Assembly (NCBI GenBank): GCA_015231615.1 | Contig: JADGBE010000012.1 | Location: 1-64,000, forward strand | DNA: 64,000 bases | Origin: Desulfamplus sp. | GTDB taxonomy: Bacteria; Desulfobacterota; Desulfobacteria; Desulfobacterales; Desulfobacteraceae | Direction: 5' to 3' | Shown here: piece after piece, positions 19,473 through 64,000 of the stretch | Layout: each line of letters starts with the position of its first letter | Numbering within the stretch: the stretch's first letter is position 1 | Translations under genes and position numbers: made by a program | The notes under the pieces: generated by a model | Database searches by the model: none | What the model was told of the DNA's origin: nothing | Seen by the model: only the letters and a program-made list of their open reading frames with translations

Positions 19473-20273
19473 ATGGCAGAGCCAGCATTTGAAGAGAGAT
19501 TAAGTTCATTAGAAATTGTGTTAGAAAGCTTTATCATGTCAACTCACGTCATGATTCGGGAGATGAAAAACGAAAGTGCAAAGATGAGGCAGGATACCGC
19601 TCAGATGAAAGCCGAAATGAGGCAGGATACTGAAAAAATGAAAGCCGAAATGAGGCAAGACACTGAAAAAATGAAAGCCGAAATGAAGCAAGATACTGAA
19701 AAAATGAAAGCTGAAATGAGGCAAAGTATTGCAAACATGGAGCAAGACACTCAAAAGATGAAAGCCGAAATTGGGAAGAGTATTGCAAACATGGAGCAAG
19801 ACACCAAAAATATGAGAAAAGAGATGAACAAGAAGTGGGGTGAGCTTGCCAATAAAATGGGAACTATTTCAGAAGATATTGTTGCTCCAAATATTCCCGG
19901 AGTAGCAAGACAATACTTTAATGTGGAGAAACTTCTATTTTTTGCACTTAATGTAAAGTGTCAGAATATTTCTAAACCAGAGATTATAAGAGAGTTTGAT
20001 GTCATTGCAGTGTCAGATGAGTTCTTTTTTCTTAATGAAACTAAATCTACTCCCAAAATAAGCTATGCAAATGATTTTATAGAGCTTCTCCCAAATATTT
20101 ATGACTATTTTCCACAGTATAAAGAAAAGAGACTAATTCCCATTTTTTCAGCTCTGCACATTCCTGATGAAATTAAAAACTACCTAACCAAACACAAAAT
20201 TTATGCAATGGCTATGACAGATGAAACTATGGATTTGATCAATTTTGAAGATTTATCTAAATCTGAAGAATAA
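19473..20273 (+). CDS. Coiled-coil protein with C-terminal nuclease-like domain (DUF3782-like)
   Basis: 266-residue protein. An AAGGAG 7 bases ahead selects ATG 19473 over the upstream in-frame TTG. Residues 38-81 are four tandem 11-residue repeats (MRQDTEKMKAE), followed by two SIANMEQDT units, making a long charged coiled coil. The C-terminal 130 residues (VARQYFNVEKLL..., REFDVIAVSDEFFFLNETKS) have the D...ExK pattern of PD-(D/E)xK folds, as in the DUF3782 family common in filamentous or multicellular bacteria. Function unknown. The tandem 33-base DNA repeats suggest a length-variable coiled coil. Confidence 0.7.
   Translation: MAEPAFEERLSSLEIVLESFIMSTHVMIREMKNESAKMRQDTAQMKAEMRQDTEKMKAEMRQDTEKMKAEMKQDTEKMKAEMRQSIANMEQDTQKMKAEIGKSIANMEQDTKNMRKEMNKKWGELANKMGTISEDIVAPNIPGVARQYFNVEKLLFFALNVKCQNISKPEIIREFDVIAVSDEFFFLNETKSTPKISYANDFIELLPNIYDYFPQYKEKRLIPIFSALHIPDEIKNYLTKHKIYAMAMTDETMDLINFEDLSKSEE
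19584..19715 (+). repeat. Tandem 33-bp repeats encoding a coiled coil
   Basis: Four near-identical 33-base units within the coiled-coil gene, each encoding M[RK]QDT[AE][QK]MKAE. Downstream a second duplicated stretch (around 19725 and 19779, encoding SIANMEQDT) continues the pattern. The period is a multiple of three, so copy number can change without a frameshift. Confidence 0.8.
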
Positions 20274-36799: not shown

Positions 36800-37657
36800 A
36801 TGACACATCAAAATGAATCAACAATACGTTTTTCAGGTGCTACAAAGTATGTTTTAGATAGTGAACTCGCATCTATTGTCAATATTTCAATGGCTCTTGA
36901 GATGCCGCTTTTGCTCAAAGGTGAACCAGGAACAGGCAAAACTATGCTTGCCTATGCAATCGCTGAAAATCTTCAAATGCCGCTGATTATCTTAAATGTA
37001 AAATCAAGCATGAAACTTGTTGAGGCATTGTATCAATATGACACATTGACAAGGCTAAATGACAGCCGTTTTGGTGATTCCAAAAGAGATGTCAGTAACA
37101 TTAACGAGTATATTAAAATGGGGAAAATTGGTCAGGCGTTTACGGCAGAACATAGAACAGTTCTCTTAATTGATGAGATAGACAAAGCAGATACAGATTT
37201 TCAAGATGATATGCTTGATGTTCTTGACCAGATGCAGTTTGACATAATTGAGACCGACCAAACTATAAAGGCAAAACTAAGACCAGTTATTATCATTACA
37301 TCAAATGCGAAAAAAGACCTATCAGACCCATTTCTTGGAAGGTGTAATTTTCACCATATTGCCTTTCCTGATCCCAAAATGATGAGAAAGATAATATCTG
37401 TTCACTTTCCCTCAATTGACAGCAAACTTGCTGAAAATGCCATTACAGCATTTTATTCAATGCGTGAACTTGACGGCATTGAGAAAAAACCTGCAACAAG
37501 GGAACTTATCAACTGGATACGCGCACTTAACGCTGACCCTGATTTTCGTGCAAAAGATATTGTAAAAGGCGAACTACCATTTCTTGGTGTTCTTTTTAAG
37601 AAAAGCCCAGACTACGAGAGGGCACAGAGCATTACATCAAGGCGTAAATTCTTTTAA
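36800..37657 (+). CDS. MoxR/CoxD-type AAA+ ATPase
   Basis: 285-residue AAA+ chaperone-like ATPase. YVLDSELASIVNISMALEMP precedes Walker A GEPGTGKTMLA, with Walker B VLLIDEIDKAD, sensor 1 VIITSNAKKDLSDPFLGR, and the arginine-bearing C-terminal helical domain. This N-terminus is typical of the CoxD-like branch that works with a von Willebrand A-domain partner (CoxE) in metalloenzyme maturation. The expected VWA gene is missing: after the stop come only tandem repeats and then a sensor kinase. GAGGA precedes the ATG. Confidence 0.88.
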   Translation: MTHQNESTIRFSGATKYVLDSELASIVNISMALEMPLLLKGEPGTGKTMLAYAIAENLQMPLIILNVKSSMKLVEALYQYDTLTRLNDSRFGDSKRDVSNINEYIKMGKIGQAFTAEHRTVLLIDEIDKADTDFQDDMLDVLDQMQFDIIETDQTIKAKLRPVIIITSNAKKDLSDPFLGRCNFHHIAFPDPKMMRKIISVHFPSIDSKLAENAITAFYSMRELDGIEKKPATRELINWIRALNADPDFRAKDIVKGELPFLGVLFKKSPDYERAQSITSRRKFF

Positions 37658-37813
37658 AAAATTGGTTGTTCTCTTACCATACAAGACGTAAATTCTTTTC
37701 ACAAATTGGTTGTTCTGATACCATACAAGACGTAAATTCTTTTCACAAATTGGTTGTTCTGATACCATACAAGGCGTAAATTCTTTTCACAATTTTTTTG
37801 TTCTCATACCATA
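37638..37813 (+). repeat. Four tandem 44-bp repeats starting at the 3' end of moxR
   Basis: Units begin at 37638, 37682, 37726 and 37770, each exactly 44 bases and nearly identical. The first unit includes the last codons (RRKFF) and stop of moxR; the others carry copies of that gene end. The array stops 22 bases before the start codon of the next gene, filling almost the whole intergenic gap. There are no spacers, so this is not a CRISPR array. Confidence 0.92.
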
Positions 37814-41011: not shown

Positions 41012-42184
41012 ATGAAAATAAATCCATTAACAAAAAAAAGATGGAGACGATTTATCTCCATAAAAAGGGGATTTTTCTCATTTATTGCATTAATGGCGAT
41101 GCTAACTATCTCCATATTTGCGGAATTATTTATAAATAGCAGGGCAATTGTTGTCTATTATAATGGAGAGTTATGGTTTCCTACCTACCAAAGCATGATT
41201 CCCGGAAAAACTTTTGGTCTTGATTATGAATATGAGACAAATTACAGGGAACTGAAAAAAAAATTCCAAGAAGAGAAAGATCGTGAACTTACCCCCTATA
41301 AGAATATTAGCCCCACCCCCCACCCCCTCCCCAATGGAGAGGGGAATAATAAACGCCCTCCCCTTGGGGAGGGGCAAAATAATTATCTGGAAAGCTATAG
41401 CAATATTAGAAAAAATTTTGTCATAATGCCTATCGTGCCATACAACCCCTATGAAAACGACCTTAAAGAGAATAGTTACCCTCCTTTTCCGCCATCATTT
41501 TCAGAGAGGCATTTTTTTGGAACTGATAATGTTGGAAGAGATATTTTAGCAAGATTGGTCTATGGTTTTAGAACTGCTATGCTCTTTTCTTTTGTGCTTC
41601 TGATTTTAGATTATGTAATTGGGATAACGCTTGGGTGTTCTATGGGCTACTTTGGTGGCAAGTTTGATCTCTTTTTTCAAAGAGTTCTTGAGATATGGAG
41701 CAATATTCCATTTCTTTATGTAGTGATTATTGTCTCATCAATCTTAGTACCCAATTTTACTGTGCTTCTTTTGATTATGGCATTTTTTGGCTGGATAAAT
41801 ATGACATGGGTAATGCGAACAATGACCTATAAAGAGAAAGAGAGAGAGTATGTTCTTGCTGCAAGATCGATTGGTGCATCACATTTTAGGGTTATTTTTC
41901 ATCATATAATTCCAAATACCCTCTCTATTATTGTAACTTATGCCCCATTTTCAGTATCAGGAGGTGTTGTTGCCTTAACCTCTCTTGATTATTTAGGATT
42001 TGGGCTTCCCGCCCCTACACCAAGCTGGGGAGAACTCTTACAGCAAGGTTGGAGCAATATGAGTGCATGGTGGATTTCGGCTTCTGTAGTATCAGCTCTT
42101 GTTATAACTCTTATGACAGTAACTTTTACAGGGGAAGGTATAAGAGAGGCTTATGATCCTAAGATGTACTCTTTTTATGAGTAA
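41012..42184 (+). CDS. ABC transporter permease, OppC/YejE family, with in-frame repeat insert
   Basis: 390-residue inner-membrane subunit of an oligopeptide/microcin C-type importer. An N-terminal membrane segment with RRFISIKRGFFSFIALMAML and the RHFFGTDNVGRDILARLVYG signature of YejE/OppC lead into five further segments and the EAA loop VLAARSIGASHFRVIFHHII. Residues 100-124 (SPTPHPLPNGEGNNKRPPLG...) are encoded by a GC-rich palindromic element and are absent from the family; they lie in the periplasmic loop, where an insert can be tolerated. Partner permease, binding protein and ATPases are not in the window. Confidence 0.88.
   Translation: MKINPLTKKRWRRFISIKRGFFSFIALMAMLTISIFAELFINSRAIVVYYNGELWFPTYQSMIPGKTFGLDYEYETNYRELKKKFQEEKDRELTPYKNISPTPHPLPNGEGNNKRPPLGEGQNNYLESYSNIRKNFVIMPIVPYNPYENDLKENSYPPFPPSFSERHFFGTDNVGRDILARLVYGFRTAMLFSFVLLILDYVIGITLGCSMGYFGGKFDLFFQRVLEIWSNIPFLYVVIIVSSILVPNFTVLLLIMAFFGWINMTWVMRTMTYKEKEREYVLAARSIGASHFRVIFHHIIPNTLSIIVTYAPFSVSGGVVALTSLDYLGFGLPAPTPSWGELLQQGWSNMSAWWISASVVSALVITLMTVTFTGEGIREAYDPKMYSFYE
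41309..41383 (+). mobile_element. GC-rich double-hairpin element inside the permease gene
   Basis: C/G-rich block in an AT-rich gene: AGCCCCACCCC start, hairpin 1 (CCCCTCC... to ...GGAGAGGGG), a short AATAATA linker, hairpin 2 (CCCTCCCC / GGGGAGGG). It is read in frame as SPTPHPLPNGEGNN... Related copies occur at 54551-54628 (intergenic) and 63609-63691 (inside the NRPS). The length keeps the permease frame open. Confidence 0.8.
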
Positions 42185-54550: not shown

Positions 54551-54628
54551 AGCCCCACCCCGCCCTCCCCAAAGGGAGGGAGTTATATTATTCCCCTCTT
54601 CTAAGGAGAGGGGTTTAGGGGTGAGGCG
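54551..54628. mobile_element. Intergenic copy of the GC-rich double-hairpin element
   Basis: About 78 bases: AGCCCCACCCC opening, hairpin CCCTCCCC.../GGGAGGG, a TTATATTATT linker, hairpin CCCCTCTTCT.../GGAGAGGGG, and a closing GGGGTGAGGC. It matches the copy at 63609-63691 block for block and in the same + strand orientation, including the TATATTATT linker. It lies between rsmB and fmt without disturbing a gene. Confidence 0.8.
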
Positions 54629-54662
54629 AAGTAATATAACAAAGTAGAAGCATGGTGTTTAA

Positions 54663-61354: not shown

Positions 61355-64000
61355 TTAATTTCTTAACAAATAGGTTTCCAAAAAGTTTGAAAAATCATTA
61401 ACCATTTTACGGATACGCTCTTCTGCAAAACGCTTTGTGTTATAATTCCAGATAATTTGCAATTTCCCATCAGCAATTGCACCGTTTATATCTAAATCAT
61501 GTATTATCGCAACCCCGCTTGCTACCTGTGATCCAGTCTCTTCCGAAGCTTGTTTAAACATATCTTTACTATATGCCTCAAATTCTCCAAGATAGTTAAA
61601 ATTTATCTCAGGATATGGTTCATTTTCTCTATTAATCCAAGAGTTAATGTCAGAATAAAGCCCCATTTTTAAGGGCGTTAGATACTTCAATAATCCCCAG
61701 CCAATGCCATTGTTTGGAACAACTTTTAACGCCTTATCAATGGCTGATATTGACTCTATTGCATCTCTATTTGCATTAATACTTATTATAGATAGATAAG
61801 TTGCTGTAAACCACCCGACAGTGCGTGATACGTCAATATCGTCAAATAGTTCAGGGCGACCGTAGCTCTCAAGAGAAATGAGTGTTGAACTATGACCATG
61901 CTGACAATGACACGACCAAGCTAATGCTGCAAGAAGAAACCTATCCAATCCTACACCGCCTGCTCTTTTATTAAAATTGGTTTCAACACCTGCACTTACG
62001 TCTAACCTTTTATTAAAATTGCTTGCAATTTGCCTTAATTGCCGAGTTTTCTCTATGTCCCATTGAATCTCTACAATATCCATATCAGCCATAACAGCAG
62101 TTTGAGCTGAAAAATCTGATGGCAGGCGACCAAAAGGCTGCTGGATAACTTCAAGCCAGTATTGCTTTTCAGATTGAAGAGCATCGCTTGAGGCATATTT
62201 TTCCAAAGCCAAAGCCCATGTTGCAAAATAATCAGTTTTGTATGGTAATTCTATCAACTCTTTTGCTGATTTCTTTTGTGTTACACTATCTTCTGTTACT
62301 CCATCTTTTGATAATTTCTCTTTTACTGATTTTGCGTTAAAATTAAAATGTTGATTATATGCAGATTCCAAATCTTCCAATATAATCCGCCATGAAACAG
62401 CATCACCAAGAAGATGGTGCATAACTATAAATAATCTATCTCCATCAGCAAGCTGAAAATGGATAGCTTTAAAAAGAGGCTGTTTAAAAAGATCAAAGGA
62501 ACATTGAGCATCATTAGCTATACGTGAGAGGGTGGAAGCTGCCTCTGAAAGTGGTAAATGCCGCAAATCAACTACTTGAAATATCTTTGATTTTAAATCA
62601 GCCGATTCTGGTGGAATAAAAAGTTGAATCCCTTTAGTGGTCTCTTTACAGGCTAAACGCAGCATATCATGGTGTTCAACTACAGCATTAACAGCAAAAT
62701 ACAGTGAATCTGGGTCTAACTCTGTTTGGCTGTAAAATAGATCAGCATGGTTAAAATGGCTGGCATAATTTTTAAAATGATCAAAAAACCAGCGATAAAT
62801 TGGAGTTTGAACAACATCACCGCTTAATTTATCAATATTTTTAATTATGCTGATCTCTTTGCTGCTGCCATCTTTATTATTTTCTTCATTGAACTCTTTT
62901 GGGTTAAATTCTTTAACCCCATATTTTGCAAGTTCACTAATTGTTGTCCATTTAAATATATCTTTAACTTTAACAATAAAACCATTCTCTCTAAGCAATG
63001 CCACCATTCTTATTGCTTTTATTGAATCTCCTCCTAAATTGAAAAAATCATCATTGGAGCTTATATCTTTACGATTAAAAAGAGTCTGCCAAATTTTAAG
63101 CACTTCTTTTTCTAACGATGTCATAGAAAAGTTTGATGATGCTTTATTTGAATTTTTTTCGATCTGCTCTTGCATCACTTGAGCTGGATTTGGCAAAGCT
63201 CTTTTATCGATTTTACCATTTATTGTCATTGGAAAAGATTTTAATGATATAAAAACTGTTGGTATCATGTAGGCTGGAACACGCTCTGATAGGTGTCTTC
63301 TCAACTCTGATGATAGTGGTTTAGATTTAGTTACAATATAAGCTGCCAAATGGTTATTTTTTTCAGACTCATCTTGCCAAACAGTTACAAGAGCATCTTC
63401 AATACCTGCAAAGGTCTTTAAGGCAGAAGCAATTTCACCCGGTTCAATCCTAAAACCTCTTATTTTTACCTGTTCGTCAACACGACCTAAAAATTCTATA
63501 TCTCCAGTTGGCAGCCATTTTCCTAAATCACCAATGCGATACATTCGGGTTAAGTCTTTGATACGGCAACTTTGACCTTGCTCTATTTTACTAATAGATT
63601 TTACACACAGCCCCTCCCCAGACCTCCCCACGGGGGAGGGAGTGATATTATTTCCCCTCTCCTTATGGGGAGGGGGCAAGGGGGTGGGGCTAAAAGGATT
63701 TGAAATAAATTTTTGAGAAGTAAGTTCAGGACGGTTTAGATAACCGCGGGCAACCCCGACTCCAGCAAAACAAAGCTCACCCGCAACACCTATTGGCACA
63801 GGGTTAAGATGTTGATCAACGATAAATACAGCGTTGTTTGCAATTGGAGAACCAACTGGAATTGTATCGCCATAAAAAGCATCTGGATTAACCTTATGAA
63901 AAGAGGTGCAGACAGCAGTTTCTGTTGGTCCGTAAGCATTAAAATAGTTCTTTGTTCTGCCATAAAATAGAGCATCTTCTTTAATTGCTGGCTCACCAGC
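61355..64000 (-). CDS. Non-ribosomal peptide synthetase, terminal A-PCP-E module (partial)
   Basis: At least 881 residues; the 5' end is beyond the window. The frame is open to base 64000, upstream of a tempting GTG at 63799. Adenylation core motifs: NAYGPTETAVC (A5), GELCFAGVGVARGYLNR (A6), YRIGDLGKWLPTGDIEFLGR (A7), VDEQVKIRGFRIEPGEI (A8), and NGKIDKRALP (A10). The carrier domain has NLGGDSIKA (S326 of the visible part takes phosphopantetheine). An epimerisation domain follows: HHLLGDAVSWRI, TVGWFTATYL, NGIGWGLLKYL, FNYLGEF. It ends with no thioesterase, so it yields a D-configured residue passed on to another protein. Confidence 0.93.
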   Translation of the reverse strand, partial: AGEPAIKEDALFYGRTKNYFNAYGPTETAVCTSFHKVNPDAFYGDTIPVGSPIANNAVFIVDQHLNPVPIGVAGELCFAGVGVARGYLNRPELTSQKFISNPFSPTPLPPPHKERGNNITPSPVGRSGEGLCVKSISKIEQGQSCRIKDLTRMYRIGDLGKWLPTGDIEFLGRVDEQVKIRGFRIEPGEIASALKTFAGIEDALVTVWQDESEKNNHLAAYIVTKSKPLSSELRRHLSERVPAYMIPTVFISLKSFPMTINGKIDKRALPNPAQVMQEQIEKNSNKASSNFSMTSLEKEVLKIWQTLFNRKDISSNDDFFNLGGDSIKAIRMVALLRENGFIVKVKDIFKWTTISELAKYGVKEFNPKEFNEENNKDGSSKEISIIKNIDKLSGDVVQTPIYRWFFDHFKNYASHFNHADLFYSQTELDPDSLYFAVNAVVEHHDMLRLACKETTKGIQLFIPPESADLKSKIFQVVDLRHLPLSEAASTLSRIANDAQCSFDLFKQPLFKAIHFQLADGDRLFIVMHHLLGDAVSWRIILEDLESAYNQHFNFNAKSVKEKLSKDGVTEDSVTQKKSAKELIELPYKTDYFATWALALEKYASSDALQSEKQYWLEVIQQPFGRLPSDFSAQTAVMADMDIVEIQWDIEKTRQLRQIASNFNKRLDVSAGVETNFNKRAGGVGLDRFLLAALAWSCHCQHGHSSTLISLESYGRPELFDDIDVSRTVGWFTATYLSIISINANRDAIESISAIDKALKVVPNNGIGWGLLKYLTPLKMGLYSDINSWINRENEPYPEINFNYLGEFEAYSKDMFKQASEETGSQVASGVAIIHDLDINGAIADGKLQIIWNYNTKRFAEERIRKMVNDFSNFLETYLLRN
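63609..63691 (-). mobile_element. GC-rich double-hairpin element inside the NRPS adenylation domain
   Basis: 83 bases bounded by an AGCCCC.CCCC / GGGGTGGGGCT inverted repeat, with two inner hairpins and an ATATTATT linker. Read on the coding strand it gives SPTPLPPPHKERGNN..., about 29 residues placed between the A6 and A7 motifs. It corresponds to the copies at 54551-54628 and 41309-41383. Confidence 0.82.

Follow-up and report, generated by a model that had tools for sequence, protein, structure and literature searches.

A dispersed family of short palindromic DNA elements occurs in Desulfamplus sp., characterized by inverted ends, a TA target read at two sites, survival in frame within genes, a sense bias restricted to the genic copies, and empty sites in relatives. 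The best reading of this element is that it is MITE-like, non-autonomous and TA-targeting, and that it belongs to the genus Desulfamplus; further, it is highly probable that the copies surviving within genes are those that are translated through, with the host protein carrying the product as a disordered loop. The window, i.e., the whole 64,000-nt stretch of DNA analysed here, represents contig 33 of a 3.86-Mb draft genome (200 contigs, ~90% complete) and contains three copies, while a fourth copy is located just beyond it. Sequence comparison of HypF supports the assignment to this genus, since its best named matches are Desulfamplus MAGs (54-85% identity), with a Thermodesulfovibrionales MAG at 39%.

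The NRPS insert and the family it belongs to

The first-pass annotation described an 83-base GC-rich palindrome that interrupts the adenylation domain of a non-ribosomal peptide synthetase (NRPS), and we could confirm its position, strand, fold, open frame and the intactness of the motifs around it. The core (63609..63691, minus strand; AGCCCC...GGGGCT) is read in frame as SPTPLPPPHKERGNNITPSPVGRSGEGL inside the open NRPS frame (61355..64000, minus strand; the A-PCP-C part of an ORF that runs on past the window), the flanking adenylation motifs, GVARGYLNRPEL and MYRIGDL, are both intact, and, as RNA, the core folds more strongly than 200 out of 200 shuffled sequences (z = -3.3). The insert extends beyond this core, however. 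Orthologues in two close relatives (G005 and G007), with flanks of 88-93% identity, do not have the segment and differ by 120 nt net, which places the whole insert at ~63572..63691 (minus strand; edges accurate to a few nucleotides). The ~37 nt below position 63609, past the core, match no recognised source, and the copy consists of the core only, with both arms absent, as opposed to a clean full copy. Since the arms were lost and these ~37 nt have no known source, the history of this particular copy is not that of a clean insertion. The inserted peptide was also claimed to be foreign to the NRPS family, and the alignment of homologues agrees: besides the two close relatives, the element is absent from this site in all 11 further A domains of the alignment, and there are 49 residues at the insert vs. 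4 in gramicidin synthase. An AlphaFold2 model of the A domain has a mean pLDDT of 80, with insert residues 409-450 below 50, and the insert is accordingly predicted to be disordered. The fourth copy, beyond the window, is found in the same NRPS gene and is read in antisense. Other Desulfamplus NRPSs (L172, L173, L180) have unrelated fillers in the A6-A7 loop, one of them with GNQFT-type repeats, which suggests that this loop is a permissive site and a hot spot for added sequence.

The second copy in the window, composed of the core and a right arm ending in TTATCTGGAAAGCTATA (41305..41399, plus strand), is in frame within an ABC transporter permease gene (41012..42184, plus strand; PF00528). 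This copy, which had been recognised previously, is genuine and in sense orientation, but reaches farther than thought, to ~41399, because its right arm is kept; the insert is present in G007 and its site is empty in G001, G004, G008 and G009. The proposal that the NRPS and permease copies are read in the same frame holds for the frame of their SPTP start, whereas indels shift the two frames apart in mid-core. The third copy (54552..54638, minus strand) is intergenic, between two minus-strand ORFs. Separate from the element, the window contains a 44-bp unit repeated four times in tandem (37638-37813), immediately upstream of a 1018-aa ORF, and 33-bp repeats within an ORF (19577-19793).

Searching the same genome with the segment by BLAST returned 43 matches, among which a few copies are counted once per strand. 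In 68 regions selected by means of the end pattern and a covariance model, an HMM search (model built from five full copies) then provided, after merging, at least 78 copies, a minimum because the first covariance-model pass scored 150 of 982 candidates. With this many matches and copies in a single genome, the family is not a chance finding. The 78 copies total 8,213 bp and have a GC content of 51% vs. 37% in the surrounding regions; 12 of them fit the HMM end to end, and the length of these 12 ranges from 79 to 141 bp (mostly 129-141 bp). The 83-bp palindrome represents the GC-rich core (a double hairpin) of a larger element with a full length of ~130-141 bp. In aligned copies (alignment A1 includes 28 of 30 loci, with L003 and L019 omitted), the core is often bounded by AT-rich arms with terminal inverted repeats, TATAGTATTTCAGATAA...TTATCTGGAAAGCTATA, and the inverted ends of full copies read TATAG(T/C)(A/T)TT(C/T)CAGATAA...TTATCTGGAAAGCTATA. 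The end pattern TTATCTGGAAAGCTATA, allowing up to three mismatches, was matched 112 times vs. 17 times for the reversed control. Three properties of a MITE were thus observed, namely short dispersed copies, terminal inverted repeats, and duplication of a TA target, the latter at two sites.

DNA matches were obtained in 10 of 39 genomes, namely the source genome, its congeners G001-G008, and G034, which belongs to the same order. Element copies are present in G004, G005, G006 and G007; for G001, G002, G003 and G008, the matches listed cover the first 25-38 bases (the arm) only, and the core matches in G034, at 76-79% identity, may reflect convergence. Searching the insert peptide against 395 genomes of the phylum, a sample with few or no congeners, provided a match in the source genome only (E-value threshold 1e-5). 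In G001, G002 and G008, we also observed elements of ~90-170 bp with the same ends and different interiors (L114, L115, L122, L124, L125), so one set of ends seems to enclose different cargo cores. Inserts in different genes of two species (L078 2977-3060 and L139 3819-3902) have an internal duplication (...GDNYSFPNGEGDNYS...) in common, suggestive of either a mobile subtype or conversion. A search for an autonomous element sharing the ends of the family, at 13 DDE_3 (PF13358) loci of seven genomes, gave none; contigs are frequently cut at these loci, the ends do not occur there in pairs, and single matches amount to four weak ones (2-3 mismatches). Two lone end-like sequences (L040, L244) are located beside ordinary genes, with no transposase ORF recognised there.

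Copies within genes, their reading frame and orientation

Defining genic copies as those in frame within an ORF with at least 40 aa on each side, 33 of the 78 copies are genic, and these are distributed over 31 ORFs. Most host ORFs encode recognisable proteins (26 of the 30 scanned pass a Pfam cut-off), including MnmE, MutL, CarB, HypF, PBP1c, NRPSs, a CobB-type enzyme, a MiaB-like radical SAM enzyme, an M1 aminopeptidase, an aldehyde ferredoxin oxidoreductase, an adenine deaminase, an ABC exporter, FapA proteins and histidine kinases, among others. Many inserts are placed between Pfam domains, as judged by inspection. CarB has 33 residues at the insert vs. 5 in E. coli CarB. Of the remaining 45 copies, 41 lie within intergenic gaps or at their borders, with five of these overlapping the end of an ORF by 1-56 nt and one having a flank beyond the stretch examined; two further copies break an ORF and two are ambiguous. 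The two ORF-breaking copies (L061 and L072:976) are both antisense, and joining their flanks restores the ORF; this number is a minimum since broken genes decay. Of the ambiguous copies, one is a doubtful breaker (L084:2979) and the other is located close to where an ORF of 269 aa ends (L076). Hence, the genome-wide tabulation called for by the first-pass annotation revealed copies that are neither in random frames nor confined to broken genes. Assuming that about one third of intact-copy placements stay open, an approximation because trimming leaves a copy with more open frames and because broken genes are lost from view by decay, the in-frame excess has p = 5e-14 (33 of 35) or p = 4e-13 (33 of 36). 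All 25 genic full-core copies have an open frame vs. 19 of 39 others, and all eight full genic copies (seven distinct sites) have a length that is a multiple of three vs. 3 of 14 others, although both counts are partly built into the genic definition and are thus not independent tests. An alpha-2-macroglobulin-like gene carries the element at different positions in its orthologues from the source genome (L042) and G007 (L141), i.e., there were two independent insertions in one gene.

The orientation of the genic copies is strongly skewed, with 29 sense vs. 4 antisense (p = 1e-5), so that the orientation noted as shared by the NRPS and permease copies describes most of the genic copies, with four exceptions. 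Copies between co-directional genes are 11 sense and 22 antisense (Fisher 1e-5 vs. genic), and therefore insertion has no general sense bias. Nor do stop codons dictate the sense excess: in 25 of the 29 sense genic copies, one or more antisense frames are open as well. What differs is the character of the encoded peptide: the sense peptide is hydrophilic and enriched in P, G, N and S, with a mean GRAVY of -0.75 vs. -0.05 for antisense, and is the more hydrophilic of the two in 22 of 25 copies (p = 2e-4). The copies of the relatives, drawn from the better BLAST matches, revealed a similar picture, with 20 of 45 being genic (14 of 24 in G007, 4 of 12 in G005, 1 of 4 in G004, 1 of 3 in G006 and 0 of 2 in G034) and 18 sense vs. 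2 antisense. When shared sites are counted once, there are 46 genic sites, 42 sense and 4 antisense. Based on 47 sense copies from five genomes, five of which are orthologous repeats, the idea of a single reading frame applies to the arms, with a common phase for 26 of the 27 left arms scored and for 43 of the 44 right arms scored, but not to the left core, which is split among phases (25, 17 and 1; n = 43).

Empty sites, shared sites and competing explanations

Homologues without the insert exist for the NRPS, MnmE, MutL, methylase, permease and HypF genes, and TA duplication could be read cleanly at two of the sites only. In the PF00590 methylase gene, the empty site reads GGAAA-TA-GTTTAG in both G007 and G005, and the source genome has the element between two TAs, with a net gain of 129 nt; the mutL gene of G007 has an empty TA site (135 nt net), with TG at that place in G005. 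The MnmE insert is present in G007 and its site is empty in G005. For HypF, the insert is absent in six relatives and the loop itself is variable, so the insert seems to have replaced a variable loop, with no clean gap. Six measured inserts are common to species, all of them in frame (PBP1c, permease, ABC exporter, adenine deaminase, kinase and MnmE), and a seventh is found in an NRPS; shared inserts other than that of MnmE were chosen as open ORFs and hence their lack of stops is not a separate test. Pooled over the six, i.e., six of eight computed pairs, the other two repeating the same genes, dN/dS was 0.21 for the hosts and 0.50 for the inserts, with the latter value differing both from 1 (Fisher p = 0.034) and from the host value (p = 0.012). 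In the ABC exporter (L078 in the source genome, L130 in G007 and L150 in G005), the insert and some of its flank are identical between G007 and G005 despite about one fourth of the synonymous sites of the host gene differing between these two genomes, and gene conversion or local transfer is a possible cause.

We consider tolerance under selection to be the most likely explanation for these patterns. According to this explanation, a transposase acting in trans, perhaps of the IS630/Tc1-mariner type given the TA target, would place the element at TA sites regardless of genes. Selection would then purge most genic insertions, when the gene is broken, the frame is lost, or the insert is hydrophobic, and the survivors would be those with one stop-free frame, a length that is a multiple of three, and a hydrophilic, disordered peptide at a linker or surface-loop site. 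The host gene would be translated straight through such a copy, resulting in a protein with a loop of 25-46 residues, and copies may afterwards lose their arms while keeping the frame, the core-only copy of the NRPS probably being an example. It is also conceivable, if rather unlikely, that the mobile lineage itself has been shaped to be safe for genes, such that a full copy at a TA in the right register adds 138 nt net, a number divisible by three, and is stop-free and hydrophilic. If so, coding sequence, which makes up most of the genome, would become usable landing ground, and the genic copies would be part of the breeding stock, beyond mere survivors.

The first-pass annotation left open whether the element is tolerated or selected as protein-coding; our data favor tolerance with weak constraint, and support a selected peptide less. 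An inserted peptide co-opted as a functional loop or linker, its sequence kept by selection, could account for the six inserts common to species and for the difference between nonsynonymous and synonymous rates within inserts, but the latter p value is marginal and comes from six pooled genes, the protein sequence of the inserts evolves faster than that of their hosts, the host proteins are unrelated to one another, close relatives manage without the insert, and the insert is predicted to be disordered; we therefore regard this explanation as improbable. Even less credible is that the segment is part of the gene and absent from the protein, due to RNA or protein splicing or ribosomal bypass. 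The segment does form strong hairpins, as bypassed segments can, but such removal needs neither an open frame nor a coding orientation, as opposed to the nearly uniform phase of the arms and the predominance of sense copies; in addition, no known RNA family (Rfam) was matched in four sources, and the inteins and self-splicing introns known to us are all far larger than the insert. Finally, the 200-contig, incomplete draft status of the genome might raise the concern that the hosts are broken or dispensable relics or that the inserts are metagenome assembly errors. This concern is already contradicted, and we give it almost no weight, because the hosts are under purifying selection between species, most of those scanned have Pfam domains above the cut-off, they include MnmE, MutL and CarB, and the same inserts are present in independently assembled genomes.

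Relation to known palindromic elements and significance

The likeness to Rickettsia palindromic elements, proposed in the first-pass annotation, is borne out by the in-frame insertion in unrelated conserved genes with insert-free homologues, and the earlier interpretation of the element is supported overall. The Rickettsia elements (Ogata and others 2000, 2002) are described as palindromes of 105-146 or ~150 bp in many copies, about half of which are located in conserved protein genes, in frame, and translated as an extra peptide, with intergenic copies as well (PMC2229807, PMC10969869, PMC3733652). The Desulfamplus element is likewise short, palindromic, multicopy, in frame in conserved genes and in part intergenic. 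It differs in that its host is another bacterium, its sequence is different, as judged from the peptide and not base by base, and it has a TA target duplication at two empty sites, whereas target duplication is given as unknown for the Rickettsia elements in PMC2229807. Palindromic repeats in protein-coding genes are also described for Wolbachia (Ogata 2005, cited in PMC2229807, PMC3733652), another member of the Rickettsiales, the likeness here being one of description.

Other MITE-like elements share part of these features. The enterobacterial RU-1 (ERIC), RU-2 and RU-3 elements have open frames and occur inside annotated genes, but are described as mainly intergenic with some gene fusions (PMC2759123); for Desulfamplus, 33 of 78 copies are genic, most of them are placed within single genes that are conserved, and relatives have empty sites. 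The pneumococcal RUP (~107 bp) has inverted ends and a TA target, like the element described here, and RUP and other TA MITEs are thought to be moved by IS630; however, RUP is described as intergenic and has stops in its reading frames (PMC2229807), whereas the Desulfamplus element has one sense frame open. The Coxiella QMITE1 and QMITE2 have dozens of copies, some of which extend or enter ORFs in frame, but these are described as mostly at gene ends or in hypothetical ORFs and with variable direct repeats, as opposed to TA (PMC5896051). The RU elements and Coxiella QMITEs are milder cases of the same behaviour. The best reading is that the Desulfamplus element works like the Rickettsia palindromic elements and represents a separate family, as far as its peptide shows. 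The literature searched provided no paper linking Desulfamplus with miniature inverted elements, and the two papers that combine Desulfamplus with palindromes concern, by title, other subjects. A new family of an established, rarely seen kind, outside the best-known groups, is well supported.

Protein-coding palindromes are best known in Rickettsia and Wolbachia, for which weak selection in an intracellular host offers an easy explanation. Unlike Rickettsia, which is obligately intracellular, Desulfamplus is not known to have such a lifestyle. A 2024 review of MITEs considers the same route conceivable in other prokaryotes (PMC10969869). Our results show that one bacterial genome of nearly 4 Mb has at least 33 such insertions, including in enzymes that modify tRNA, repair mismatches or take part in pyrimidine synthesis. 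For genome annotators, the odd P/G/N-rich segments in these Desulfamplus proteins are transposon-derived. Further, the empty sites, the shared sites and the contrast between sense and antisense copies make the selection filter acting on new protein loops measurable within one genus.
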